Source: Tropicibacter alexandrii (GTDB lineage Bacteria; Pseudomonadota; Alphaproteobacteria; Rhodobacterales; Rhodobacteraceae). Taken from it: 64,000 nucleotides of DNA. The notes beneath the pieces are model-generated. The model made no database searches, was not told the DNA's origin, and saw only the letters and a list, made by a program, of their open reading frames with translations. Of this stretch, positions 15,223 to 33,908 are shown piece by piece. Position 1 is the first letter of the stretch, and each line of letters opens with the position of its first letter. The translations under genes and the position numbers were made by a program. The stretch spans positions 1 through 64,000 of the forward strand of contig NZ_RCTZ02000005.1 of assembly GCF_003667315.2 (NCBI RefSeq), given 5' to 3'.

Positions 15223-15795
15223 ATGAAACGCGCACTGATGCTGACGACTTTCCTTGCGACGCTGTCCGGCGCCGCGCAGGCGGCAGAACCCGTCGAGGCC
15301 ATGCAGGGCTTTCTGACCGAACATATCATGGGCTGGGCGGCCAGCCCCGTGGTGATCGATGCGATCAATGGCCAGAACGTCACGACCCTTGGCTATGACG
15401 CCGCCCGGATCGACGAACTCGATCAGGCTTGGCGCGCGGAGGTGGGCACCAGTGCCACGCCGACGATCGACCCTGTCCTGTTCAACGCGGCCTCCGATTA
15501 CCTGCGGGCGCAGGTCGAGGCGATGGGCGGTGCGGTGACCGAGATCTTCATCATGGATGGGGTGGGCCTGAACGTCGCCGCCTCCGACGCGACCTCCGAT
15601 TACTGGCAGGGCGACGAGGACAAGTGGCAACAGACCTATGCCGTCGGCGCCGGGGCGCATCACTTCTCGGAAATCGAGTTCGATGAATCGAGCCAGACCT
15701 ATCAGGCCCAGATCTCGGTGACGATCACCGATCCCGCCACGGGGGCACCGATTGGCGCGATGACCGTGGGGGTCGATGCTGAACTGTTGATGTGA
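15223..15795 (+). CDS. Secreted stand-alone PDC/Cache-like sensor protein
   Basis: The 190-residue product has a signal peptide (MKRALMLTTFLATLSGAAQA) and a mature domain resembling the PDC/Cache ligand-binding fold. Typical features are IFIMDGVGLNVAASDATSDYWQ, GDEDKWQQTY and the closing strands QISVTITDPATGAPIGAMTVGVD. These domains are usually fused to receptors, but this one ends after the fold with no membrane anchor. CTGGAGGTAAAG precedes the ATG. The chemoreceptor gene starts 41 bases after the stop, or overlaps it if GTG 15792 is used. The pair probably act together, with this protein presenting a ligand to the receptor. Confidence 0.75.
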   Translation: MKRALMLTTFLATLSGAAQAAEPVEAMQGFLTEHIMGWAASPVVIDAINGQNVTTLGYDAARIDELDQAWRAEVGTSATPTIDPVLFNAASDYLRAQVEAMGGAVTEIFIMDGVGLNVAASDATSDYWQGDEDKWQQTYAVGAGAHHFSEIEFDESSQTYQAQISVTITDPATGAPIGAMTVGVDAELLM

Positions 15796-15836
15796 CCACG
15801 GCAGGCGCAACGCAGTCTTTTGTTTTGGGGGATACA

Positions 15837-17600
15837 ATGAGCAAATCGAACAGAACACGTGTTTGGGGCATGGCCCTGCACTCGGTTTTTCTGCGTTGCG
15901 CCGGCATCATGGCGGTGACGACGGTGGTCGTCGCCGGCACCATGGCCTACCAGTCCGCACGCCTGACAGAGGGTCTGGCCAAACACGGGGTGATCGAGCA
16001 ACTTGACAAGGCGTCCTTGTCCACTGCCGAGGCACTGGTCAAGCCGATCCGTTTCAAGTCACTCCCGAAAGTGCAGGAGACCATCGACAACAGTCTCGCG
16101 CTTGCGGGCGATCTTGGCAGAGGGGGCTTGGTCCTCGATCTCGAGGGCAATGTGCTGGCCGAAAGTGGCGTCGCCGATGACCCCGACCTGTCCGGAGAAC
16201 TGGCCGCGCTTGCCGCCGCCGCCCTTGCGGATGCTGCCGTGGTGTCGGGCGAGTCCGGTTTGATGCGGGCCGAGCCGATCTATGCCGAACCCGGCGGTGA
16301 TGTGATCGGTGCGATGGCGATGGCGTTCTCCGCCGATGTGCAACTGGCCGCGGTGCGCAGCCAGAACCTCGAAATCCTGATGATCGCGGTTGGTCTGTTC
16401 GTCGTCCTGTCGCTGCTGTCCACGTTGCTGCTGCGCCGGACGCTGGGGCGACCCCTGAACCAGATGACCGGCGCAATCGCCACGGTCGCCAAGGGCGATT
16501 ATGATCTCGAACTGGCAATGACCGCGCGCCGCGATGAATTCGGTTCGATGGCGCAGAACCTTCAGGATCTGACGACGACGCTGAAGGCAAATCGCGATGC
16601 CGACGCGCAACGGGCCAGCCAGATGGAGGAACAGACGCGCGTGGTCGAGGAACTGTCGCAGGCCCTTGACCGGCTGGCGGAGGGGGTTCTGGCGCAGGAA
16701 ATCACCCAAACGTTCCCCTCCGAATACGAGGCGCTGCGAAACAACTTCAACCGCGCCGTCGCCTCCCTTCGGACCGCGATCCTGAAGGTCCGGCAGAGCG
16801 CAACGAACATCACCGGCTCTGCCGAGGAAATCTCGCGCGCATCCGATGATCTGTCGCAGCGCACCGAAACGCAGGCGGCGACGCTGGAACAATCTGCCGC
16901 CGCGCTCGAGGAATTGCTCAACAGCGTCAATGCTGCCGCCCAGAATGCCGGCAATGCCGATGCAACGGTGCGCAACGCCCGCGAAATCGCGACCCGCAAC
17001 GGCGAGATCATGCGCGAGGCGATCTCGGCCATGGGCGAGATCGAAAAAAGTTCGGACCAGATTTCGGAAATCATCACCGTGATCGACGACATCGCCTTCC
17101 AGACGAACCTTCTGGCTTTGAATGCGGGGGTCGAGGCGGCGCGCGCCGGCGAGTCCGGCAAGGGCTTTGCCGTGGTAGCCTCCGAGGTGCGGGGGCTTGC
17201 CCAGCGATCGGCAGAGGCGGCGCAACAGATCAAGGACCTGATCATCGGATCGACCGAACAGGTTCAGAGCGGCGTCGAACTGGTGGAGCGTGCAGGCAAT
17301 GCGCTGCAGGAAATGGTGACCAAGGTCGCCGAAATCTCGGACATGGTCGCAGAGATCGCGCAGGGGGCCGGGGAACAGGCACGCGGTCTGGACGAGATCA
17401 ATGTCGGCGTGGCCAATCTGGACCGCGTGACCCAGCAGAACGCGGCCATGGTCGAAGAGGCAACCGCCGCCGCGCATATGCTCAAGAGCGATGCGGGCGG
17501 GCTGGCCGATCAGGTCGCGGTCTTCATCACCGATGCGTCGGGCGCGCCGGACATGGCCCCGGCGCCCGCTTCGGCGGCCCGGTCGGTACGGGCGGGCTGA
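15837..17600 (+). CDS. Methyl-accepting chemotaxis protein (transmembrane)
   Basis: A receptor of 587 residues. TM1 (IMAVTTVVVAGTMAYQ) is near the N-terminus, followed by a periplasmic segment of about 130 residues and TM2 (ILMIAVGLFVVLSLLSTLLL). A HAMP domain follows (RRTLGRPLNQMTGAIATVAKGDYD). The cytoplasmic coiled-coil carries the conserved hairpin tip [20 protein letters not shown] and then [22 protein letters not shown]. It would signal through CheW/CheA. ATG 15837 follows GGGGGATACA; a GTG at 15792 overlapping the previous stop is an alternative. Its last 91 bases overlap the convergent LysR gene. Confidence 0.92.
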   Translation: MSKSNRTRVWGMALHSVFLRCAGIMAVTTVVVAGTMAYQSARLTEGLAKHGVIEQLDKASLSTAEALVKPIRFKSLPKVQETIDNSLALAGDLGRGGLVLDLEGNVLAESGVADDPDLSGELAALAAAALADAAVVSGESGLMRAEPIYAEPGGDVIGAMAMAFSADVQLAAVRSQNLEILMIAVGLFVVLSLLSTLLLRRTLGRPLNQMTGAIATVAKGDYDLELAMTARRDEFGSMAQNLQDLTTTLKANRDADAQRASQMEEQTRVVEELSQALDRLAEGVLAQEITQTFPSEYEALRNNFNRAVASLRTAILKVRQSATNITGSAEEISRASDDLSQRTETQAATLEQSAAALEELLNSVNAAAQNAGNADATVRNAREIATRNGEIMREAISAMGEIEKSSDQISEIITVIDDIAFQTNLLALNAGVEAARAGESGKGFAVVASEVRGLAQRSAEAAQQIKDLIIGSTEQVQSGVELVERAGNALQEMVTKVAEISDMVAEIAQGAGEQARGLDEINVGVANLDRVTQQNAAMVEEATAAAHMLKSDAGGLADQVAVFITDASGAPDMAPAPASAARSVRAG

Positions 17601-23312: not shown

Positions 23313-24542
23313 CTAGAAGAACTCCATGGCGAGCAGTTCGTCCTTGTCAGCCGCGTTCGTGCCCGAGGCGGACTGGTGGGCGGCCCGCTGCGATTGCATG
23401 ACATAGCGTTCGGACATGTCCTGCATCAGGTCGCTCAGCGCGGCAGGATCGATATCGGGTCCGTTCGAGGCAATATGCGACAGTCGGTCGACAGAGCCGA
23501 TGATCCCCTCCATCTGCTGTCGGACGATGTCCTGAAACTGGATCGTGGCGAGGGCCGCAAGGATTTCCGTCTGAATCTCGCTTCCGGCCGCGTTCTGACG
23601 GCGCAACGTCTCCTGCTCTTTCTCGATCAGTTCCGAGAATTCGCGGGCCAGTGCGGCCAGCTTGCCCCGCGCGTCGTCGAGAACCGCCCGCTGCAGTTCC
23701 AGCTTGTCCTCGATATTGTCCTCGGGAGACGCGCCTTCGCCGTTCGTACCGCTTGAGAACCTGTCCAGAACCGTGCGCGCGCTGGAAATCAGCGGTTCCA
23801 GCCGGACCGTCAACCCTTGGGTTTCGTTGGCCATCTTGCGGATTTCCCCGGCGATCACCGTGAAACCCGCGCCGTGATCCCCGGCCCGCGCCGCCTCGAT
23901 CTCGGCATTGATGGCGAGGATGTTGATCGCCTTGGCGATGCTGCCGATATGCTCGACCTCCTTGCGCAGGTTGCTGACCGTCGTGTGCACGGTGCCAAGC
24001 GCCTGACGCGACAGGGTCATCACCTCGGTCACCACCTGGCTGGAATCCTGCGCCTGTTGAATGGCGGCGTCGAGATCGCGCCGTTCGGTTTCGTGCCGCG
24101 CGGCGAGGTATTCGACGCGTTCGACCCAAGCCAGTGCCTCGGTGCTCTTGGCGTTGAGGTGAACCATGCGGTCTTCGATGGCGGTCAGTCTCTGGACGAA
24201 GGACGTGCTGGCCCCCTCGGTGTCGCCGATCACGTTGCGGGCCTGATTGGCCAAAATCTGGCAAATCTGCGGAAGATCCCGGGCCCAGGGGGCAGTGTCC
24301 GGCGCAGGGGCGCTGACCGGAACCTGCCAGGTGTCCGTTGGGTCGTCGTCGGCCGCAGTATCGGTTTCGCCGGTGGCGGGCTCAGGCACGCGCGCCGGGG
24401 CGAGTTGGCCCAGCGCGTGGTTCAGGCCCACGATCGACAGGGCCAAAGCCGCGCCCAGCCCGGGTATCTGCCCGACCGACAGCAGGAAAAACGCGGCTTC
24501 CGTGATCGCCATCAGGATCGACGTTCTGACGATGAATGTCAT
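23313..24542 (-). CDS. Short membrane chemoreceptor-like protein at the end of the che operon
   Basis: The protein has 409 residues. Two closely spaced N-terminal transmembrane helices (residues about 6-46) leave no room for a periplasmic sensor domain. A cytoplasmic linker and a receptor-like coiled-coil follow, with the tip NILAINAEIEAARAGDHGAGF and VIAGEIRKMANET. After the coiled coil it diverges from normal receptors, with a segment ATIQFQDIVRQQMEGI that resembles sequences in CheZ- and PilJ-type proteins. No HAMP domain or CheR-binding pentapeptide is visible. It lies 15 bases after the second cheY and is the last gene of the operon. Its input may be membrane state or a partner protein. 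Confidence 0.82.
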   Translation of the reverse strand: MTFIVRTSILMAITEAAFFLLSVGQIPGLGAALALSIVGLNHALGQLAPARVPEPATGETDTAADDDPTDTWQVPVSAPAPDTAPWARDLPQICQILANQARNVIGDTEGASTSFVQRLTAIEDRMVHLNAKSTEALAWVERVEYLAARHETERRDLDAAIQQAQDSSQVVTEVMTLSRQALGTVHTTVSNLRKEVEHIGSIAKAINILAINAEIEAARAGDHGAGFTVIAGEIRKMANETQGLTVRLEPLISSARTVLDRFSSGTNGEGASPEDNIEDKLELQRAVLDDARGKLAALAREFSELIEKEQETLRRQNAAGSEIQTEILAALATIQFQDIVRQQMEGIIGSVDRLSHIASNGPDIDPAALSDLMQDMSERYVMQSQRAAHQSASGTNAADKDELLAMEFF

Positions 24543-24557
24543 GGCGTATCTTCCCCT

Positions 24558-24929
24558 TCAGCCGTTGGGGAGCAGTTTCTTCAGCGCCCCCTGAAGCTGG
24601 ACCGGGTCGGCGGGCTTTACCAGCCAACCCGTCGCACCGGCCGACTTGGCCTCGTCCCGCCGCTCGCGCTGCGACTCGGTGGTCAGCACCAGCATCGGTG
24701 TGAAGCGGTGTTTCGGGCTGCCGCGCAGCGCGCGTATCAAATCGGCGCCATTCTTGCCCGGCATGTTGAAATCGGTGATCATCAGGTTGAAGGAAAGGCC
24801 CCCCTGCACCTTCTTGAAAGCGTCTTCTGCGCTGATGGCCGTGGCCACCTGATAGCCGAAGCGTTGCAACATCTGGCTCATGCTCATCAGCACCGTCGAA
24901 CTGTCATCGACAAGGAGTATCGTGCTCAT
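24558..24929 (-). CDS. cheY: CheY-like single-domain response regulator (second copy)
   Basis: The 123-residue product is a receiver domain alone. The acidic pair is in ILLVDDSSTVL, the phospho-acceptor aspartate in LMITDFNMPGKNGADLI, Ser/Thr in LVLTTES and lysine in WLVKPADP. There is no output domain. It lies between the STAS gene and the membrane receptor-like gene and would be phosphorylated by the operon's CheA. Whether it acts as an output or as a phosphate sink relative to the other CheY is unknown. Confidence 0.92.
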   Translation of the reverse strand: MSTILLVDDSSTVLMSMSQMLQRFGYQVATAISAEDAFKKVQGGLSFNLMITDFNMPGKNGADLIRALRGSPKHRFTPMLVLTTESQRERRDEAKSAGATGWLVKPADPVQLQGALKKLLPNG

Positions 24930-24940
24930 CTCGTTCCTTC

Positions 24941-25186
24941 CTACGTGGGGGCGACCGTCAGGGTGCCGGTCAGCAAACCGGTCCAGTCAGAGCGTCCTTC
25001 CGTTCCGACGATGCGGGGACGTGTCGCCAAAAGCACCTGCAATATGGCCGTGTGGGCGTGGCCGACAGCGCTTAGATCGACGACGGGATCGTCCTGCGCA
25101 CAGATCCATGCATACAGGTCCTCGGCTTCGACGATCTCGCAATGGCCGGTCAGGGTTGCGCGGCCGTCCTTCAGGTCCAGCGGCAT
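24941..25186 (-). CDS. Small STAS-like protein in the che operon
   Basis: This 81-residue protein (MPLDLKDGRATLTGHCEIVE at its start) has the beta-alpha pattern of a STAS/MlaB-like domain: a paired strand, then VVDLSAVGHAHTAILQVLLA where STAS proteins have the DLS..xxDSxG region. The usual phosphorylatable Ser is not obvious; the position reads Ala-His-Thr. It starts 16 bases inside the cheA 3' end and ends 11 bases before cheY, so it is a true operon member. STAS domains mediate protein contacts in stress and partner-switch signalling. The family assignment is by pattern only. Confidence 0.7.
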   Translation of the reverse strand: MPLDLKDGRATLTGHCEIVEAEDLYAWICAQDDPVVDLSAVGHAHTAILQVLLATRPRIVGTEGRSDWTGLLTGTLTVAPT

Positions 25187-27456
25187 CGGATCACCTCCGC
25201 CAGATTGAGGGCAAGCAGGACCGATCCGTCGCCCAGCAAGGCGGTCCCCGAGAAACATTCGGAATGACGCAAAAGGCCCTCCATGGGTTTGACGATCGCA
25301 TCCACGCCGGCATGGAACCGATCCACGACCAGCCCAACCTCGTTCCCGTCCACCTCTACGACCATGAGGTTGATATCGCGTTTAGACGTGTCCGGCGGGC
25401 AGCCGAAAAGGTCGCGCAGATGCAACAGCGGGATCATCCGCTGGCGCAGCAGAACGGTTTCGTTGTCGCGGTGGCGGTGAATCCGGTCTCGTGGCAGGCG
25501 CTGGCTTTCGACGACGGCATCGACCGAAACGCCGTAGTAGCCGCCATCGACCTCGATCATCATCAGGCGCTGGACCGCCATGGACAAGGGCAAGGCGATG
25601 CGGACGGTGGTGCCTTGGCCTGCGGTGCTGTTCAGGGAAATCGTGCCGCCGATCCGGCGGACCATGCTGGCGACGACATCCATGCCGACGCCGCGCCCCG
25701 ACAGGTCCGATATCTGCTCCTTCGTCGACAGGCCGGGTGCCATGACCAACTGCAACGCCGTCGCGTCCGCCATGGCCGACAGGGTGTCGGCATCGACCAA
25801 CCCCTTTTCCAAGGCCTTCGCCCGGACGCGATCGAGGTCGATCCCCCGCCCGTCGTCGCTGACCTCGATGATGACGCTGTCATCCTGCTGGTAGGCCTTC
25901 AGGCGGATTGTGCCCTCGTCAGACTTGCCCGAGGCGCGGCGGTCTGCGACCGTCTCCAGCCCATGATCCACCGCGTTGCGGATCAGGTGAACCATCGGGT
26001 CGGCCAGTTCCTCGACCACGGATTTGTCGGCCTCGGTATCCTCGCCCTCGACCACCAGTCGGATGCGTTTGTCCAGCTTGCGCGACAGGTCGCGCACAAG
26101 CCGGTTGAACCGCCCGAAAACCGTGCCGACCGGCACCATCCGCACCTTCATCACGGCGGTCTGCAATTCGTCGGCAATGCGGTTGATCACGTCATGCTGG
26201 CTCTTGATTTCGCGGGCCAGCGTCTTGCTTGGTACACCTTGTTCGGCGCGGCGGGCGAGGAAGGGCAGGGCGTTCTTGGCAACGATCAACTCGCCCGCGA
26301 GGTTCATGAGCATGTCGATCCTGTCGGCATCGACCCGGATGGAGATCGCCTTGCGACTTTCGGTCTTCGGCTCGACCGGGCCCAGATCGGGTTCGAGGTC
26401 GGGCTGCGGCTCGTTCGGCGCTGCGGGCTGGGCAAGCTGCGTGCCCAACGCCTCGGCGAGGCCATCGAGGCGCGTTTCGGCCTCTGGGGCCTCGGGGTCG
26501 AGCCCGGTCAGGCTGGCGCGGATGTCTTGCAGCGCGCCGGTATCGCAGCGCCGGGCGATGGCGATCAGCATACGGCGGGCGACCGCGATGCGTGCGGGCG
26601 CGGTCTGCTCGGCGCCCTGCGCGGCCAGCAGCCGCCGTTGAGAGCCGATCAGGTCACGCGCGAGCGCCAGCGTATCGCCATCGATCTCGGACCGGGCTGT
26701 TGCGTCCGTGCTCAGCCGGGTTAGCTGGACCTGATCCTCGACATACAGGAAATGCGCGCGCAGGGCGACTTCGTCTGCGCAGGCCACCGCCGCGAACCCC
26801 AGTCGCGCCTCGAACGGATCCATCCGGCCCGGCTCCGGCCAGACCTCCGGCGCGACCGTGCCAACCCATCGCAGACCGGGGGTGTTCATCACCGTCAAAA
26901 GCGGGTCATCGCCGGAATAGAAGGCGTTCGCATCGGGCGTATAGTCGATCCGCCAGCATTCGGGTTCCCCGGCGCAGCGCTGCTTGTCCTCGGTGGCCAT
27001 ATCGTCCGGCCAGACGCCGGTGGCAGGGGGCGGGGCCGCGCCCCCCGGCGTGTCGGTGCGCGTATCGCTGTCCTCGGTCAGCGGTTGGCGCAATTTCGCC
27101 GCGAGCCGATCCGCGCTGGCATCGGCGCCATCGGCGAGCTCCTGATGCGCTTCGAGTTGGTCCAGCCAGTCCGAAACCTGATCCAGCAGCATCAACAGCA
27201 TGTCCGCAAGATCCGGGGTGAATGGCACGTCGCCCTCGCGCACCGCGTCCAGCAGGTCCTCGCCCGCATGCACGGCCTTGGTGAAGGGCGCGATCTCGAA
27301 CAGGCCGGACGCCCCCTTGATCGTGTGTACGGCGCGGAACAGCGCCGCAAGATGGTTTTTGTCCGCAGGCGCGGCCTCCAGCGCGAGCAGCGCCAGCGAG
27401 GCCTCCTCCAGCAAGCTGCGGCCTTCGGTCAGAAATTGTTCGAGCAAGGGGTTCAT
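25171..27456 (-). CDS. cheA: Chemotaxis histidine kinase CheA
   Basis: CheA of 761 residues. P1/HPt has the phosphorylated His44 in LFRAVHTIKGASGLF. Residues of about 130-330 are not a standard P2 and contain a segment (DPLLTVMNTPGLRWVGTVAP) like a regulatory domain seen in some CheA variants. P3 dimerisation starts near VDADRIDMLMNLAGELIVAKNA. The P4 ATPase has HLIRNAVDHGLE, DDGRGIDLDRVR and GRGVGMDVV. P5, CheW-like, is at the C-terminus. It autophosphorylates and donates to the two CheY proteins and CheB. The start overlaps the preceding cheY stop (ATGA). Confidence 0.95.
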   Translation of the reverse strand: MNPLLEQFLTEGRSLLEEASLALLALEAAPADKNHLAALFRAVHTIKGASGLFEIAPFTKAVHAGEDLLDAVREGDVPFTPDLADMLLMLLDQVSDWLDQLEAHQELADGADASADRLAAKLRQPLTEDSDTRTDTPGGAAPPPATGVWPDDMATEDKQRCAGEPECWRIDYTPDANAFYSGDDPLLTVMNTPGLRWVGTVAPEVWPEPGRMDPFEARLGFAAVACADEVALRAHFLYVEDQVQLTRLSTDATARSEIDGDTLALARDLIGSQRRLLAAQGAEQTAPARIAVARRMLIAIARRCDTGALQDIRASLTGLDPEAPEAETRLDGLAEALGTQLAQPAAPNEPQPDLEPDLGPVEPKTESRKAISIRVDADRIDMLMNLAGELIVAKNALPFLARRAEQGVPSKTLAREIKSQHDVINRIADELQTAVMKVRMVPVGTVFGRFNRLVRDLSRKLDKRIRLVVEGEDTEADKSVVEELADPMVHLIRNAVDHGLETVADRRASGKSDEGTIRLKAYQQDDSVIIEVSDDGRGIDLDRVRAKALEKGLVDADTLSAMADATALQLVMAPGLSTKEQISDLSGRGVGMDVVASMVRRIGGTISLNSTAGQGTTVRIALPLSMAVQRLMMIEVDGGYYGVSVDAVVESQRLPRDRIHRHRDNETVLLRQRMIPLLHLRDLFGCPPDTSKRDINLMVVEVDGNEVGLVVDRFHAGVDAIVKPMEGLLRHSECFSGTALLGDGSVLLALNLAEVIRCRWT

Positions 27457-27848
27457 GCGCGTTCCTCCGCCGGAAAGAAGGACAAGAGCGTGGACAGGAT
27501 GTTCGGTTTGACCGGCTTGACGAGGTAGTGATTGGCCCCGGCCGCAAAGGCCTGTTCGGCGTCATGCACCTGTGCCTCGGTCGAGATCATCACCGCTGGG
27601 ACGTCGCGCGTATGCGGCATGGTCCGGGCGGCGTCGAGGAATCGATAGCCATCCATCACCGGCATGTTCACGTCGATCAGCATCAGGTCGATGGTGCGAT
27701 CCAGCGCGCGTTCCAGCGCCTCCATGCCGTTTTCAGCCTCGATCACGGTCCACCCCGCCGCTTCGATCAGGCTGCGATGGTACATCCGGACGGTCGTGGC
27801 GTCGTCGACGACAAGCGCCGTGGGTCGGTGGGCGGCGGGTGTTGTCAT
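27453..27848 (-). CDS. cheY: CheY-like response regulator (first copy)
   Basis: The 131-residue product is a receiver domain only. It shows TALVVDDATTVRMYHRSL, the phospho-acceptor aspartate in LMLIDVNMPVMDGYRFLD, VMISTEA and the lysine in YLVKPVKPN. The ATG at 27848 overlaps the cheR stop (ATGA), and its own stop overlaps the cheA start. An upstream open extension to 28031 lies inside cheR and is not used. It is the likely main phospho-signal output of the operon, though its target is unknown because no flagellar or pilus genes are present. Confidence 0.92.
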   Translation of the reverse strand: MTTPAAHRPTALVVDDATTVRMYHRSLIEAAGWTVIEAENGMEALERALDRTIDLMLIDVNMPVMDGYRFLDAARTMPHTRDVPAVMISTEAQVHDAEQAFAAGANHYLVKPVKPNILSTLLSFFPAEERA

Positions 27849-28693
27849 GACAAGGGCCTCTGGTAGACGATGGCGTCCGTGAACTTGCGGACCGTGTAGA
27901 GCGAGGACATTCGGCTCATCGATTCCGAATGACCCAGAAACAGGAATCCACCGGGGTTGAGCGCGTCGAACAAGGTGTCGGCGGCCCGGCGGCGGGACTG
28001 ATCGTCGAAGTAGATCAACATGTTGCGGCAAAAGATGACGTCATAGCCTTTCAGGGCGCGCGTCTGTTGCGGATCGGACAGGTTCCGCGGGAAGAACCGC
28101 ACCGCATCGCGGATCTGGTCCGAAATGCGGTAGCGCCGGCCAGCCAGCGGGGTGAAATGCCGCTTGAGCATCGCCGGGGGGACATGCTGGACCGAGCGTT
28201 CGCCGAACACCCCGTCCTCGCATTTCCCCAGCGCCACGGTATCGATATCGCAGCCCGACAGCTCGACATCGTGCTGGGCAAGGCCGGGCCATTCCTCGAT
28301 CAGGTGCAACGCGATGCTATAAGGTTCCTCGCCAGTGGAGCAGGGCAGGGACAAAAGCCGGATCGGTCCCTTTCGGCGGCGTCGATTGTGCACCACCTCG
28401 TCCATCACGTCGCTGACCAGAACGCGGAACTGGTGATCCTCGCGAAAGAAATACGTCTCGTTCACGGTCATCTGGTTGACCAGTTCCTGAAACTCGGACT
28501 GGCTGGCCTCGAACCGCATATGGACGAAATATTCGCGGAAGGATCGGGCGCCGGTCGCCTCGATCCGGCGCAAGATGCGCTTGTCCACGAAGTAGCGCTT
28601 GGAGTCGTCGAACTCGATCCCGGTCTTCTTGTAGAAGTATTCCCGGAACTGCTTGAATTCGTCCAACGTCAAGGCTGTGACGGCCATGGTCAT
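27845..28693 (-). CDS. cheR: Chemotaxis protein methyltransferase CheR
   Basis: The product of about 282 residues has the CheR N-terminal helical domain (EFKQFREYFYKKTGIEFDDS) and the SAM-dependent methyltransferase fold. SAM-binding motifs are SLPCSTGEEPYSIALHL and later DVIFCRNMLIYFDD, followed by NPGGFLFLGHSESM. It methylates glutamates in receptor signalling helices. Start 28693 overlaps the HEAT-repeat gene stop (ATGA); 28687 is an alternative. CheR presence together with CheB implies that at least one receptor here is subject to methylation adaptation. Confidence 0.94.
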   Translation of the reverse strand: MTMAVTALTLDEFKQFREYFYKKTGIEFDDSKRYFVDKRILRRIEATGARSFREYFVHMRFEASQSEFQELVNQMTVNETYFFREDHQFRVLVSDVMDEVVHNRRRRKGPIRLLSLPCSTGEEPYSIALHLIEEWPGLAQHDVELSGCDIDTVALGKCEDGVFGERSVQHVPPAMLKRHFTPLAGRRYRISDQIRDAVRFFPRNLSDPQQTRALKGYDVIFCRNMLIYFDDQSRRRAADTLFDALNPGGFLFLGHSESMSRMSSLYTVRKFTDAIVYQRPLS

Positions 28694-29322
28694 CCGGCGG
28701 ACCCCGCTGCGATGTTCTCGATCCGGGCGATGACGGTGTCGGCGGCGAACTGGATATAGGGCTCGTCGGCGAAGCGCGTGCTTACCTCGCGCAGCGCCGC
28801 CAGATGTTCCGGCCCGCCTATGTCGGTCAGCCGGTCGATGGCGGTGCCGACCACGTTGGTATGGGTTTCGCGCATCAACAGGTCGCGCAACCACAGCGGC
28901 GCATCGGGATGCGGCAGCAGCCGCAGGATGTCCACCGCCATGATGCGCACATCCGGGTCCGGGCTTTGCAGCAGCGGCGCCATATGGCCGGCGACCGCCG
29001 TCGACATCTTCTGCAGGAGCGTCACCGCCTCGTTGCGCATTTCGGCCGTGTCGCTGGACAGCAGGTCGATGATCCCGGGCACCGTGTCGGCATCGTTCTG
29101 CTCGGCCAGCGCATCGAAGAGCGCGGCCCGCACCAGCGGCGACGGTTCGTCCGCGAGCCGGGCCAGCAGCAACGGTGCTGCGCCGTCGATCTCGGCGAGG
29201 CCAAGGGCGGCGGCCCGGCGTTTGGACTCGCTGCCGTCGGCCAGCTGTCTTTGCAGGGTGCTTCGGCTCGTCTTGCGGGCGGATTTGGAAGCAGAGGGTT
29301 CGGACTGGGGGATCAGCGGCAT
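28690..29322 (-). CDS. HEAT-repeat protein in the che operon
   Basis: A 210-residue protein with a basic, Ser/Lys-rich N-terminus (about 30 residues), followed by repeated pairs of helices of HEAT type. Repeats read, for example, ADEPSPLVRAALFDALAE, SSDTAEMRNEAVTLLQKM and QSPDPDVRIMAVDILRLL. HEAT arrays are scaffolds and have no catalytic site. It lies between cheB (overlap TGATG) and cheR (overlap ATGA), so it is translated with the adaptation enzymes and probably tethers CheB or CheR or recruits them to the receptor. Such a gene is not part of the standard E. coli chemotaxis set. Confidence 0.85.
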   Translation of the reverse strand: MPLIPQSEPSASKSARKTSRSTLQRQLADGSESKRRAAALGLAEIDGAAPLLLARLADEPSPLVRAALFDALAEQNDADTVPGIIDLLSSDTAEMRNEAVTLLQKMSTAVAGHMAPLLQSPDPDVRIMAVDILRLLPHPDAPLWLRDLLMRETHTNVVGTAIDRLTDIGGPEHLAALREVSTRFADEPYIQFAADTVIARIENIAAGSAG

Positions 29323-30386
29323 CAGGCGGTCCTTTTCACGCGCACCCGGGATGTCCAGGCGATGAGTTGCTCGGCGATCTGTCCGCTGGGCAGGATTTCT
29401 GTGGCGCCGCCGTATTCGATCAGTTTCATCGGCATGCCGAAGACCGCGGCGCTGTCTTCGGATTCGGCGATGGTCAGGCCGCCTTCGGCATGCAGCCGGG
29501 CAAACTCCCGCGCGCCGTCGTCGCCCATGCCGGTCAACTGCACGCCGATCAGCTTGGTCGCGGGCAGTGTCTCAAGCGCCGAGGCGACCATGCGCGAGAC
29601 GCTCGGATGCCAGCTGTAGGAGTCGTCGATTGCGACCGGGGTCGCGGCCAGCCGCCGGAAGCGCATCGTGACCTCGGCATCGCCACCGCCGGAAATCACG
29701 TGCACTTGGCCCGGCAGCAATGGGCAGGGCTTGGTCAATTCCGACACCTGCAGCGCGCAGGTGCTGTTGAGCCGGTCGGCGAAGACGCCGGTAAAGCGCG
29801 GCGGCATGTGCTGCGCGATGAGGATCGGCACCGGAAAACTGGCCGGCAAAGCGCCAAGGATGTCGCCCAGAATGGCTGGTCCGCCGGTCGAGACCCCGAT
29901 CAGCACCAGTTCGGGGCGGGCCTCCGTTTGGGCGGCGGATCTTGCAGGGGCGCGTCGTTCCTTCGGCTCGGGCGGGGCCTGACGCCGTGCGGGCCGCCGC
30001 TTGCGCCCGGCGCTGCGGACCTTGGCGCGCAACTCGGCAAAGACCTCGCGGATATTGTGAGAGACGGTGCCGCCCGGTTTGGCGACGAAATCCGTCGCCC
30101 CCAGTTCGAGCGCCTCGAAGCTGGCCAGTGCGCCGCGCGTGGTCAGCGAAGAGACCATGATCACCGGCACCCGCTCGATTTCCATCATGTGGGCAAGGCA
30201 GGTCAGGCCGTCCATGCGCGGCATGTTGATATCCAGCGTGACGACATCCGGGCGCAGTTGAGCGAACTTGGTCAGCGCATCTTCGCCATCGCGCGCCGTC
30301 TTGACCTCGATATCCGGGTCGGTTGCAAAACATTCTGTCAGCAGGGTCCGCATCAGGGCGGAGTCGTCAACGATAAGCAGGCGCAT
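29322..30386 (-). CDS. cheB: Chemotaxis methylesterase/deamidase CheB
   Basis: CheB of 354 residues. The N-terminal receiver (residues 1-120) has MRLLIVDDSALMRTLL and the phospho-acceptor in VVTLDINMPRMDGL. The C-terminal esterase has the catalytic triad: Ser in IGVSTGGPAIL, His in IAQHMPPRFTG and Asp in TGMGDDGAREF. It removes methyl groups added by CheR and deamidates receptor glutamines. The gene follows the triple-CheW gene by 7 bases and overlaps the HEAT gene. Confidence 0.95.
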   Translation of the reverse strand: MRLLIVDDSALMRTLLTECFATDPDIEVKTARDGEDALTKFAQLRPDVVTLDINMPRMDGLTCLAHMMEIERVPVIMVSSLTTRGALASFEALELGATDFVAKPGGTVSHNIREVFAELRAKVRSAGRKRRPARRQAPPEPKERRAPARSAAQTEARPELVLIGVSTGGPAILGDILGALPASFPVPILIAQHMPPRFTGVFADRLNSTCALQVSELTKPCPLLPGQVHVISGGGDAEVTMRFRRLAATPVAIDDSYSWHPSVSRMVASALETLPATKLIGVQLTGMGDDGAREFARLHAEGGLTIAESEDSAAVFGMPMKLIEYGGATEILPSGQIAEQLIAWTSRVRVKRTA

Positions 30387-30393
30387 CTAAAGG

Positions 30394-31965
30394 TCAGGCT
30401 ATAGCAGGTTCCGGTCGGGTGACGTCGGCGAGGTCGCCGGCGCCGACAAGTGTTTCGGCATGGGTGATCAGCAGCATCCGCCGCCCGGCATCCAGTTTGG
30501 CAACCTGCTGGACGAGATGGTCGGCATGGTTCGGCATCCTTGGCGCGGCATCCAGCGCAGCGCCGGGTATGCGCAGCACCTCGGTCACCGAGTCGACGAT
30601 GAAACCCGTTCGTTTGCCGTCGACAGTGAGGACCAGGATGCGCTGGCGGTCATGGCGGGGCAGGTCGGGGAGCGAGAACATCCGCCGCAATTCCACGACC
30701 GGCAGGACCGACCCACGCAGGTTGATGATCCCCTCGACCGTGGCGGGCGCGTTGGGAACGCGCGACAGCTGCTCGGGGACGCGGATGATTTCCTGAACGT
30801 CGTGGATGTTGACGCCGTATTCCTGTTGATCCAGCTGATAGACCACCAACTGCATCTCGTCCGTCGCATCGAAGCCCATCTCGGCCTCCTCCTCGGTGTC
30901 GGGGTCCATGCCGGTTTCGGCGCGGCTGTCTTGTTCAAGCGCCAAGGCCTCCTGCACGGCAGGCAGGTCGAGCAGGGCCGTGGCGGACAGGATCGAGACA
31001 AGCCTCTGGCCGTCGTCCAACTGGCACACCGCCTCGATTTCGTCCCGGTCGCCTCGGCGCAACACGCCGGGCAGCTTGTCCCGTGTCTCTGCCCGGATGC
31101 GCAGGACCTCGCGGACCTGGTCCACCACCATGCCGACGCGGCGCGCGGGCGTGGTGCCAAGGGTGATGACCATGACCCGGTTGTGGTCGGCCCGATCGGT
31201 ATCGGGCAGCCCAAACAGGCGGCGCAGGCTGACGATCGGCAGCAGGCGGTCGCGCAAGGTGATCAGCCCGAGCACGTGGGATTGGCTCTTGGGAACTTGG
31301 GCGATCTGTTCGGGAACCCGGACGATCTCGTCGACCTGGCCAATCGGAAAGGCATATTCCTCGCCGTTCAGAAGCAGGCTGACCAGCTGGATCATCTCCT
31401 CCTCGGTTTCGACCTCGAGAGGATCGGCGCGTTTTCCGGCCCCCAGACCCGGCCCGGTGACGGAAACTTCGCGATCCGGGAATTGCCTGCGGACGACATC
31501 GCGGACATCCAGAAGTTGCAGCATGTCGATGCCCGCGATGCCCTTGGCGACGCCGCGGAGCACGTCGGAGGACAGCGCGCCATCGTCGTCGCGGGCGTCC
31601 TCGATGCGCTGTGGATCGACGTTCAGCACCCGGGCCACGCGATCGACGATCAGCCCGACCCGTTGCCCGGCATCGACGACGATCACCCGACTGGCATCAT
31701 CGGGGGCGCGCGGCGGCAGATCCAGCGCCGTGCGCAGGTCGAGGACCGGAAGCACCTCGCCACGCAGGTTTGCGAGCCCGGTCAGAACCGGCGGCGTCAG
31801 GGGCACCGACACGGTCGTCGGTACGCGGATGATCTCTTGCACGGTTTCGATCGGAAAGCCGAAGCATTCCTTGCCAAGATGAAAGCTGACGAACTGACGG
31901 ATGTCGGCGGCGCCTTCGGTCTCGTCCCGGTCGTCGTCGAACTTGAGGGTTTCGCTCATGGTCAT
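30394..31965 (-). CDS. cheW: Triple-domain CheW coupling protein
   Basis: The 523-residue product contains three CheW domains in tandem (about residues 23-160, 191-337 and 370-508). Each has the family core: TVQEIIRVPTTVSVPLTPP with NLRGEVLPVLDL in the first; QVDEIVRVPEQIAQVPKSQ with TLRDRLLPIVSL in the second; and VQEIIRVPEQLSRVPNAP with NLRGSVLPVVEL in the third. The second domain differs at the NLRG position. No receiver domain is attached, so it is not CheV. It could cross-link several receptors or CheA molecules into an array. It lies between the soluble receptor gene and cheB. Confidence 0.93.
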   Translation of the reverse strand: MTMSETLKFDDDRDETEGAADIRQFVSFHLGKECFGFPIETVQEIIRVPTTVSVPLTPPVLTGLANLRGEVLPVLDLRTALDLPPRAPDDASRVIVVDAGQRVGLIVDRVARVLNVDPQRIEDARDDDGALSSDVLRGVAKGIAGIDMLQLLDVRDVVRRQFPDREVSVTGPGLGAGKRADPLEVETEEEMIQLVSLLLNGEEYAFPIGQVDEIVRVPEQIAQVPKSQSHVLGLITLRDRLLPIVSLRRLFGLPDTDRADHNRVMVITLGTTPARRVGMVVDQVREVLRIRAETRDKLPGVLRRGDRDEIEAVCQLDDGQRLVSILSATALLDLPAVQEALALEQDSRAETGMDPDTEEEAEMGFDATDEMQLVVYQLDQQEYGVNIHDVQEIIRVPEQLSRVPNAPATVEGIINLRGSVLPVVELRRMFSLPDLPRHDRQRILVLTVDGKRTGFIVDSVTEVLRIPGAALDAAPRMPNHADHLVQQVAKLDAGRRMLLITHAETLVGAGDLADVTRPEPAIA

Positions 31966-31985
31966 GGTGCCCTCCCGGCAGGCGT

Positions 31986-33908
31986 TCAGGCGGTCTGCAA
32001 CTCGTCGGCGACAGCAGCGATATGATCGATGGCACTGGCCAGCTCCTCGGCCCCCTCGTTTTGCTGACGTGCGGCGGCGGAGGCTTCCTCCGTGGCGCTC
32101 TGAGCCTCTTCGGCGGCGGCGGCGATCTGTTCCATCCCGGCCTTGGCATTGCTCACGGCGCTGGACACTTCTTCCGATGCGGATTGAATGTCGCGGTTTC
32201 CATCCAGCACGGTCTGCATATCCGCCAACACGCTGGCCAACTGGTCGGTGGTGACGCGCGCGCGCTCGACCTCGGTCATCGAGGCATCCGCAATGCCCAG
32301 AAGGTCGCCGCGCACGATCCCGATCTGGTCCTGGATGCCCTTGACCATGTCCTTGATCTGCTCGGCATTTTCGGCGGCGTCATTGGCGAGGTTCTGGATG
32401 TCGGTCGACACCACGGCGAACCCCTTGCCGTATTCGCCGGCCCGGGCCGCCTCGACGGCGCCGTTGACCGCCAGCATGCTGGTCTGGATCGCGACGTTGG
32501 AAATCGCATCGACGATCTTGTCGATCTTGCGGCTGATCAGCTCCAGTTCCTGAATCTCGGTGACCGAGGTGCGCCCGGCCTCCATCGCGAAATTGATGCC
32601 TGCGATGATCTCGTCGACGGTCGCGCGGTTCTCGGTGAGCAGGTTGCCGATCATTTCGCCCTTGGTCAGCGCCTCCGCCGAGCGGGCGGTGGCCATCTGC
32701 ACGTTGCGCTCGATCTGTGCGATCCCGGCAACGCCCTCTTCGACGGCGGCGGCTTGGGTCGCGGCGGTTTCGGAAATCTGGCTGATCGCGGCCATGATCT
32801 CGGAGCTGGACCGATTCAGTTCCTGAATGGTCGAAGACAGTTCCTCGGCGGCGGCGGCGACTTCCTCGGCGGATTTGGCGATATCGGTCGAGTTCTTCAG
32901 TTCCTCGGACAGCAGGTCGAGATCGTTGGCTGCCCGCTCAGCTTCCTGCAGGGCCTGCGATTGTTGGTCGACGGCCTTGCGCGCCTCTTCGGCACCGGCG
33001 GACTGCTCCTCGGCTGCGGCGGCGACCTCTTCTGCGCCCCGCTGCGCCTGAGCGGCGGCGGTGCCCATCTCGATGGCCGCCGAGGCAAGTTCGCTGGCGC
33101 CGGTCGAAATGATGATGATGTCCTGACGGATCGTGGCAAGCTGGCTGGTGACCAATTTGCCCTTTTCGACCTCGTCGGCGGCACGGGTGGCGGATTGCTG
33201 CACCCCGTCCGAGATGCGCTGCGCCCCGGCCTGGATCTGCTTGATCAGCTCCTCGATGCTGGTGGCGTTCGATTCCGAGGCCTCGGCCAAGGTGCGCACC
33301 GTATCGGCCACGACCGCAAACCCCTTGCCATGCTTTCCGGCGCGGGCCGCCTCGATCGCGGCGTTCAGCGCCAGAAGGTTGGTCTGGTCGGCGATGCGGA
33401 TCACCTGATTGACCGCGTCGATCACGTTGTTGGTCTGGCTTTCCAGCTCGGTCATTAGGGCGACCGATGCGTTTTGCCGGTCAGAGGCGCGGCCGACATT
33501 CTCCACCAGCTTGACGATGCCGCTGCTGGTATCCTCGATCAGGACCTGAAGCCGCGCGGTGGTGTCCCGGGACATCTCGGCGGCCTCTTGCTGCAGGGCG
33601 ACACGCCGGTTGATCTGGGTCATCGCGGCGGCGCTTTCTTCGGCGGCGGAGGCGGCCTGTTCCGCGCCAGAGGCGATCTGCATCATGGATTGCGACAGCT
33701 GTTCGGTGGCTGCCGCCGCCTCTGTCACACCGCCACCGAGACGTACGGTGGCCTCGGCGATGCGCTCTGCCGCCTGTTGCTGGCGGGCCAGTGTACGGGC
33801 GCGCTGGCGCTTTTGATCGACGGTCACGCTGCCGCGTGTCGGGGTCTTTGCGGTCTCGTCCACGGTGACGGACCCGGTTGCGGTTTTGTGTTTGCTGACC
33901 AATGCCAT
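31986..33908 (-). CDS. Soluble chemoreceptor with two signalling tips
   Basis: The 640-residue protein has no transmembrane helix and no recognisable sensor domain. Almost all of it is predicted coiled coil (Ala/Glu-rich heptads). It holds two receptor signalling hairpins. The first, residues about 172-200, is [20 protein letters not shown] followed by [10 protein letters not shown]. The second, residues about 471-500, is [20 protein letters not shown] followed by [11 protein letters not shown] short GSVTVD motif is repeated at residues 12-17 and 26-31. Start 33908 is preferred; the frame to 34145 lacks coding signs. It is the first gene of the che operon, and a cytoplasmic signal or partner protein would be its input. 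Confidence 0.9.

Follow-up and report, generated by a model that had tools for sequence, protein, structure and literature searches.

Chemosensory operons and the F9 class

Chemosensory arrays of class F9 were first seen in Vibrio cholerae, and the class is recognised by two signatures: DosM, a receptor that carries two signalling domains, and a CheW protein of the triple type; full clusters have been reported from 64 of 2,781 species (PMC9321776). In V. cholerae cluster I, cryo-tomography revealed an array of two layers, purely cytoplasmic and some 35 nm in height, in which DosM (VC1403) spans two base plates of CheA (VC1397) and triple CheW (VC1402) and appears to be essential (PMC7534058). 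The published gene order of that cluster is receptor VC1394, cheY1, VC1397 cheA, cheY2, cheR1, cheB1, VC1402 triple CheW and VC1403 DosM. Here we describe a ten-gene operon of Tropicibacter alexandrii, located in the first 64,000 nucleotides of contig NZ_RCTZ02000005.1 (assembly GCF_003667315.2; hereafter the window), which, judging from its genes, is almost certainly a complete F9 cluster and which ends in a gene for a short membrane receptor with a CheZ-like signature. A complete F9 system with a terminal receptor–CheZ chimera is, as an explanation of the whole locus, quite probable.

Architecture of the operon

Both F9 signatures are present in the window. An earlier note on this DNA had described a 640-residue soluble receptor with two signalling hairpins and no sensor domain, along with a three-domain CheW, and both descriptions are borne out, as profile searches find two MCPsignal stretches in DosM, which has neither a sensor domain nor a membrane segment, and three CheW stretches in the neighbouring protein. 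The two DosM tips, with the sequence EAARAG, lie at residues 186 and 486, and this spacing of exactly 300 residues recurs in 66 of 69 two-tip relatives, so that the array geometry encoded in the window would be the standard one of the class. By analogy with V. cholerae, the double tip and the triple CheW predict a cytoplasmic array of F9 type.

The same pair of proteins had been taken in the earlier note as a possible mark of an unusual array geometry. They do indicate such a geometry, but it is the published one of class F9 (PMC7534058, PMC9321776), and the novelty of the cluster is largely lost to this prior description. While the double tip, the triple CheW, and the HEAT and STAS proteins are all real, a novel geometry in which the latter two serve as new adaptors is very improbable in light of the known F9 architecture, the 300-residue spacing and the finding that HEAT and STAS genes are common to F9 operons generally. 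The proposal of an unusual new array was consequently rejected.

For the comparison with other loci, one genome per species was scanned with a triple-CheW alignment, the best 80 loci were taken and their frames labelled; the set was picked by CheW3 similarity and is hence no random sample of F9. It contains 68 full F9 loci (with dosM, cheW3 and cheA), the majority of them alpha-, beta- and gammaproteobacterial, alongside some from Thermodesulfobacteriota, Acidobacteriota, Deferribacterota and Bacillota. The window shares its complete set of genes, and their order, with other F9 operons, and as dozens of genomes have these ten genes in this order, the arrangement is not the product of chance.

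A CheZ-like signature in the terminal receptor

The last gene of the operon had been described as encoding a short membrane receptor-like protein. Membrane segments and a receptor hairpin are indeed found, but the description undersells the protein, as it misses a signature of CheZ. Two hydrophobic segments lie at the N-terminus (helices 2–23 and 29–46 in the model) with no sensor domain between them; after these two predicted membrane helices, a disordered linker leads to a single long helical hairpin, and the chain ends in a tail that is again disordered. Within the protein we find the motif Q335-F-Q337-D338-IVR-Q342 (QFQDIVRQ, residues 335–342) and a C-terminal MEFF, for which the family consensus is IELF. 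CheZ likewise has a helical hairpin and a linker, along with a CheY-binding C-terminal region, and its active motif, DxxxQ, is preceded by a conserved F/Y-Q (PMC7750401); this F/Y-Q before DxxxQ is present in the terminal protein and throughout its family.

The pattern of conservation centers on this motif. In an alignment of 43 terminal proteins whose members were selected for carrying the motif, only five columns never vary: N212, which lies at the tip, and Q335, Q337, D338 and Q342. In an unselected set of 56 terminal sequences, Q335, D338 and Q342 are kept in 54–55, which is more than for the receptor tip. Y380 and the C-terminal E407 and F409 are each above 90%, with the last residues, E-L/F-F, nearly invariant, and in most F9 terminal proteins the motif stands 111–113 residues from the tip. 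Additionally, all 43 motif-bearing F9 terminal genes adjoin a cheY, and cheZ adjoins cheY in classical operons. We therefore lean toward the view, on sequence grounds, that the terminal protein is a receptor–CheZ chimera and a putative phosphatase of phosphorylated CheY (CheY-P).

The likeness to CheZ was further examined with profiles. The motif [FY]QDxxxQ occurs in 48 of 59 terminal-family proteins, in none of 88 DosM proteins and in one of about 14,900 other frames. When 17 genuine CheZ proteins were made into a profile and 15,038 frames were searched with it, the top 15 were all members of the terminal-protein family; scores above 10 bits were obtained by 9 of 46 F9 terminal proteins and by 5 of 13 receptors linked to F7-type operons (described below), and by none of 79 DosM proteins, 23 ordinary receptors and 184 heptad-preserving shuffles. 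The reverse profile (last 125 residues of the terminal family; 399 genomes) picked up F9 members and F7-linked receptors as well as a genuine CheZ (2.3e-8; in locus L153), and Pfam CheZ matches were found inside two relatives of the terminal protein (3–4e-4).

Several results weigh against this reading. The terminal protein of the window itself has no significant Pfam CheZ match, a profile–profile comparison with CheZ is in register but reaches a probability of only 17% (E 0.0015), and in a Pfam scan of the terminal family CheZ matches are hardly more frequent than matches to coiled-coil families, DUF948 among them. A Foldseek fold search with the terminal protein returned chemoreceptors only and no CheZ. 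Furthermore, when the motif is masked only 6 of 46 F9 proteins score above 5 bits in the CheZ profile, and since masking mostly erases the signal, a catalytic helix that arose by convergence is as likely as one inherited from a common ancestor. Finally, the gene is not indispensable, as it is missing from some alphaproteobacterial F9 operons that have a PAS hybrid histidine kinase instead.

The operons that lack the terminal gene (loci L015, L090, L093, L096 and L098) carry a PAS-HisKA-HATPase-REC hybrid kinase downstream, a replacement that suggests a rewired output branch.

Related receptors in F7-type operons

The signature is not confined to F9. Receptors of about 380–440 residues (L158–L169 and L175) lie directly beside cheY-cheA in F7-type operons, which is the position of the published McpA-like receptors. 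They have a short hairpin, mostly a TFF C-terminus and, in 12 of 13, the sequence QFQDRxSQ exactly 111 residues past the tip, and nearly all of those with the motif adjoin a cheY. In the literature, V. cholerae VC1394 is classed as a 24H short membrane receptor with the McpA-like VCA1088, both without an assigned role, and McpA is described as clustering with the F6 array. The C-terminal end of McpA-like receptors is conserved, its role being published as unclear, and in genomes with early F7 systems cheZ is found only in F6 clusters (PMC7184735). In the open-access literature searched, we found no CheZ assigned to F9 and no published description of a CheZ signature in receptors. Overproduced Shewanella McpA enhances swimming in a CheA3-dependent manner (PMC9855816), which is compatible with a phosphatase, though not proof of one.

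It could instead be argued that the terminal gene encodes a plain short transmembrane receptor for the F9 or another array, with the QDxxxQ helix and ELF tail serving in packing, or in CheY binding without dephosphorylation. The MCP hairpin and its conserved tip would fit such a receptor, as would the classification of VC1394 and the change in swimming through CheA3 just described, and we regard this as a credible but less probable alternative: the motif and tail, at fixed spacing, are more conserved than the tip, the motif is absent from the DosM proteins and ordinary receptors give no profile signal, the motif always stands beside cheY, and there is no sensor domain between the two membrane segments. 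We give some preference to the phosphatase reading, by which the cheY-adjacent short membrane receptors of both F9 and F7-type (McpA-like) operons would be array-dockable, membrane-anchored putative CheY-P phosphatases.

A working model can be proposed from the V. cholerae F9 array. DosM dimers would span two opposed CheA/CheW3 base plates and hold the double-layered cytoplasmic array together, with the signal supplied by other soluble receptors. CheA would phosphorylate CheY-1, CheY-2 and CheB, and CheR and CheB would adapt the array. The signalling hairpin of the terminal protein may dock in the array, where its D-xxx-Q helix would dephosphorylate CheY-P, most likely that of its neighbour CheY-2, and the C-terminal ELF/FF tail could act as a CheY-docking peptide, as in CheZ. 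If this is true, receptor–CheZ chimeras would supply two widespread chemosensory classes with their missing signal terminators, or off-switch, and would account for the conservation seen at the C-terminus of McpA-like receptors.

The HEAT and STAS proteins

The HEAT gene is present in 67 of the 68 full F9 loci, lying between cheB and cheR/cheY in 65, and the STAS gene in 58, of which 57 have it immediately after cheA. Both are thus regular conserved members of F9 operons, and the possibility that they are local oddities is ruled out by these loci. The earlier note had suggested that they could be novel adaptors, a view that their absence from orthologous operons would have refuted; they are shared and conserved, but they belong to F9 in general. 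Neither is discussed in the open-access F9 literature searched.

The identity of the HEAT-repeat protein is supported by its HEAT_2 profile match, and its residues R35, D124 and R126 are invariant in 70 of 70 aligned orthologues. Its most probable role is to scaffold the two adaptation enzymes whose genes, cheB and cheR, flank its own. The STAS protein was modeled with AlphaFold from 46 orthologues, with a predicted local distance difference test score (pLDDT) of 88 and a predicted template modelling score (pTM) of 0.77, and the best PDB matches of the model are RsfB, SpoIIAA and RsbV, at template modelling (TM) scores of 0.55–0.7. As these are anti-sigma factor antagonists, the assignment holds, and the STAS fold is confirmed at the level of the predicted structure.

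The key difference from these proteins lies in the switch motif. F9 STAS proteins have DLxxCxHxHxAxLQ in place of the switch-type DLSxVxxxDSSGL, such that SpoIIAA, RsbV and RsfB share the fold and have DSSG, whereas the F9 proteins have HxAx together with a conserved CxHxH and Q. Where the phosphorylatable serine would stand, 51 of 52 F9 STAS proteins have alanine (HxA replacing DSSG), and one histidine and one glutamine are likewise conserved in 51 of 52; the conserved DSSG serine of the anti-sigma factor antagonists has been lost. Because of this substitution, the sequences argue against a classical phospho-switch through STAS, and a protein that is not switchable at the usual serine would most likely be a fixed adaptor of CheA or of another output partner. 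The roles put forward here for HEAT and STAS are drawn from position and conservation and are tentative, which tempers the explanation of the locus as a whole.

The same substitution bears on the idea that the output of the operon is a sigma-factor partner switch acting through STAS, in the way that CrsA/CrsR control RpoS beside the F7-type Che1 of Shewanella (PMC9855816). The resemblance of the fold to anti-sigma antagonists invites this idea, and F7 clusters also hold such antagonists (PMC7184735), but with alanine at the switch serine, and no anti-sigma kinase or phosphatase among the ten genes, it appears improbable.

Output of the system

The earlier note's remark on the absence of flagellar genes holds for the operon but not for the genome, whose flagellar and Che content was checked one protein family at a time, as a profile search finds FlhA on another contig. 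The genome is therefore flagellated, and a reading of it as lacking a flagellum was rejected. The Pfam FliM model has no match in this genome, which, given that FlhA is present, probably reflects sequence divergence in the lineage. One further CheA is encoded in the genome, and 41 of 42 F9 genomes checked are flagellated, in agreement with a published value of 97% (PMC9321776). An accessory system beside the motility system fits this combination of a flagellated genome, a further CheA and flagellated F9 hosts.

That the operon steers flagellar rotation would be in keeping with the nearly constant flagellation of F9 genomes, with FlhA in this one and with the two CheY proteins of the operon. 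It is nevertheless unlikely, as the second CheA can serve motility, no flagellar gene lies in the operon and deletion of the F9 CheA in V. cholerae gives no phenotype under standard conditions (PMC7534058).

Two other F9 hosts have features that touch on output. In Gellertiella hungarica a REC-GGDEF-EAL protein (L069:3207-5147) lies just upstream of the F9 operon, a hint of cyclic di-GMP output for that operon. An Azospirillaceae metagenome-assembled genome (L072) has an F9 operon and no FlhA match, and could come from a non-flagellated host or be incomplete.

Distribution

The F9 HEAT protein is found in 3 of 298 genomes of the window's own family and is thus rare there. Because the distribution is patchy, it suggests that the operon was acquired horizontally. 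A quick CheW3 tree, which has long branches, did not place the window with support, and the case for a probable transfer comes from the patchy distribution.

Two relatives, L016 from the genus of the window and L017 from its family, have triple CheW proteins that are 26–27% identical, encoded in operons that lack both DosM and HEAT; L017 further contains cheA, cheB, cheR, cheY and an F9-like STAS. These are apparently another triple-CheW system.

Gene layout and surroundings

The ten compact genes claimed in the earlier note are all present and co-directional. They occupy the minus strand between 33908 and 23313, in the 5' to 3' order dosM, cheW3, cheB, HEAT, cheR, cheY-1, cheA, STAS, cheY-2 and the terminal membrane receptor-like gene, and each is stop-terminated and free of internal stops (Table 1). 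Gaps range from -16 to +20 bases, the successive distances being +20 and +7, overlaps of 1, ~4, 4, 4 and 16, then +11 and +15. As a small correction to the earlier gene call, cheR starts at the ATG at 28693, in an ATGA overlap. Pfam and NCBIfam confirm all assignments but that of STAS, which is weak by sequence. The operon is flanked by genes for an M20 peptidase and a GNAT protein. Outside the operon, about 6 kb past its 3' end, a gene at 15792–17600 (+) encodes another transmembrane receptor, which has HAMP and a complete signalling domain and is among the 21 MCPsignal matches of the genome.

Table 1 Genes of the F9-class operon, in order of transcription; positions are those of the window.
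Gene	Position	Strand	Product and profile support
dosM	31986..33908	-	640-residue soluble receptor; two MCPsignal stretches, 1.3e-55 (Pfam)
cheW3	30394..31965	-	523 residues; three CheW stretches, E 2.6e-92 (Pfam); full-length relatives exist
cheB	29322..30386	-	REC + CheB methylesterase (Pfam, NCBIfam)
HEAT-repeat protein	28690..29322	-	210 residues; HEAT_2 9.8e-21 (Pfam)
cheR	27845..28693	-	Methyltransferase, 282 residues; CheR_N + CheR (Pfam)
cheY-1	27453..27848	-	Single REC domain (Pfam)
cheA	25171..27456	-	761 residues; Hpt + H-kinase_dim + HATPase + CheW (Pfam)
STAS protein	24941..25186	-	81 residues; STAS_2 weak, E 0.005 (Pfam); fold from model; HxA replaces DSSG
cheY-2	24558..24929	-	Single REC domain; directly upstream of the receptor/CheZ-like gene
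terminal receptor/CheZ-like gene	23313..24542	-	Half MCPsignal domain (Pfam); CheZ-like signature + C-terminal MEFF

Comparison with known systems

By itself the operon extends a known, sporadic class to one further host, and what is useful is the reading of its HEAT, STAS and terminal genes. The CheZ reading of the terminal gene is the newest result and a worthwhile lead, as it could offer a handle on systems that have long been obscure.

The closest described system is V. cholerae cluster I (VC1394–VC1403), which is collinear with the window and shares with it a two-tip DosM, CheW3, CheA, CheB, CheR, two CheY proteins and a terminal membrane receptor. Judging from the published locus numbering, there is room in that cluster where the window has STAS and HEAT. 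The window differs in its alphaproteobacterial host, of a kind that rarely bears F9, and in a best CheW3 identity of 44% within the tree set.

The terminal protein shares with CheZ (PF04344) the F/Y-Q-D-xxx-Q sequence in a long hairpin helix, a flexible linker, a conserved C-terminal peptide and a cheY neighbour. It is unlike CheZ in being fused into a membrane-anchored receptor, in having little similarity outside the motif and in its IELF/TFF end, where the genuine CheZ proteins of our data set end in LLxSLGF or a close variant. The McpA-like receptors of F7 systems (P. aeruginosa McpA/CttP, V. cholerae VCA1088 and S. oneidensis SO_2117) occupy a matching place, mcp-cheY-cheA, and most of their positional counterparts in our set carry the motif and tail, an equivalence drawn from gene order and not from the sequences of the named proteins. 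Their operons, unlike that of the window, are of F7 type and encode single CheW proteins.

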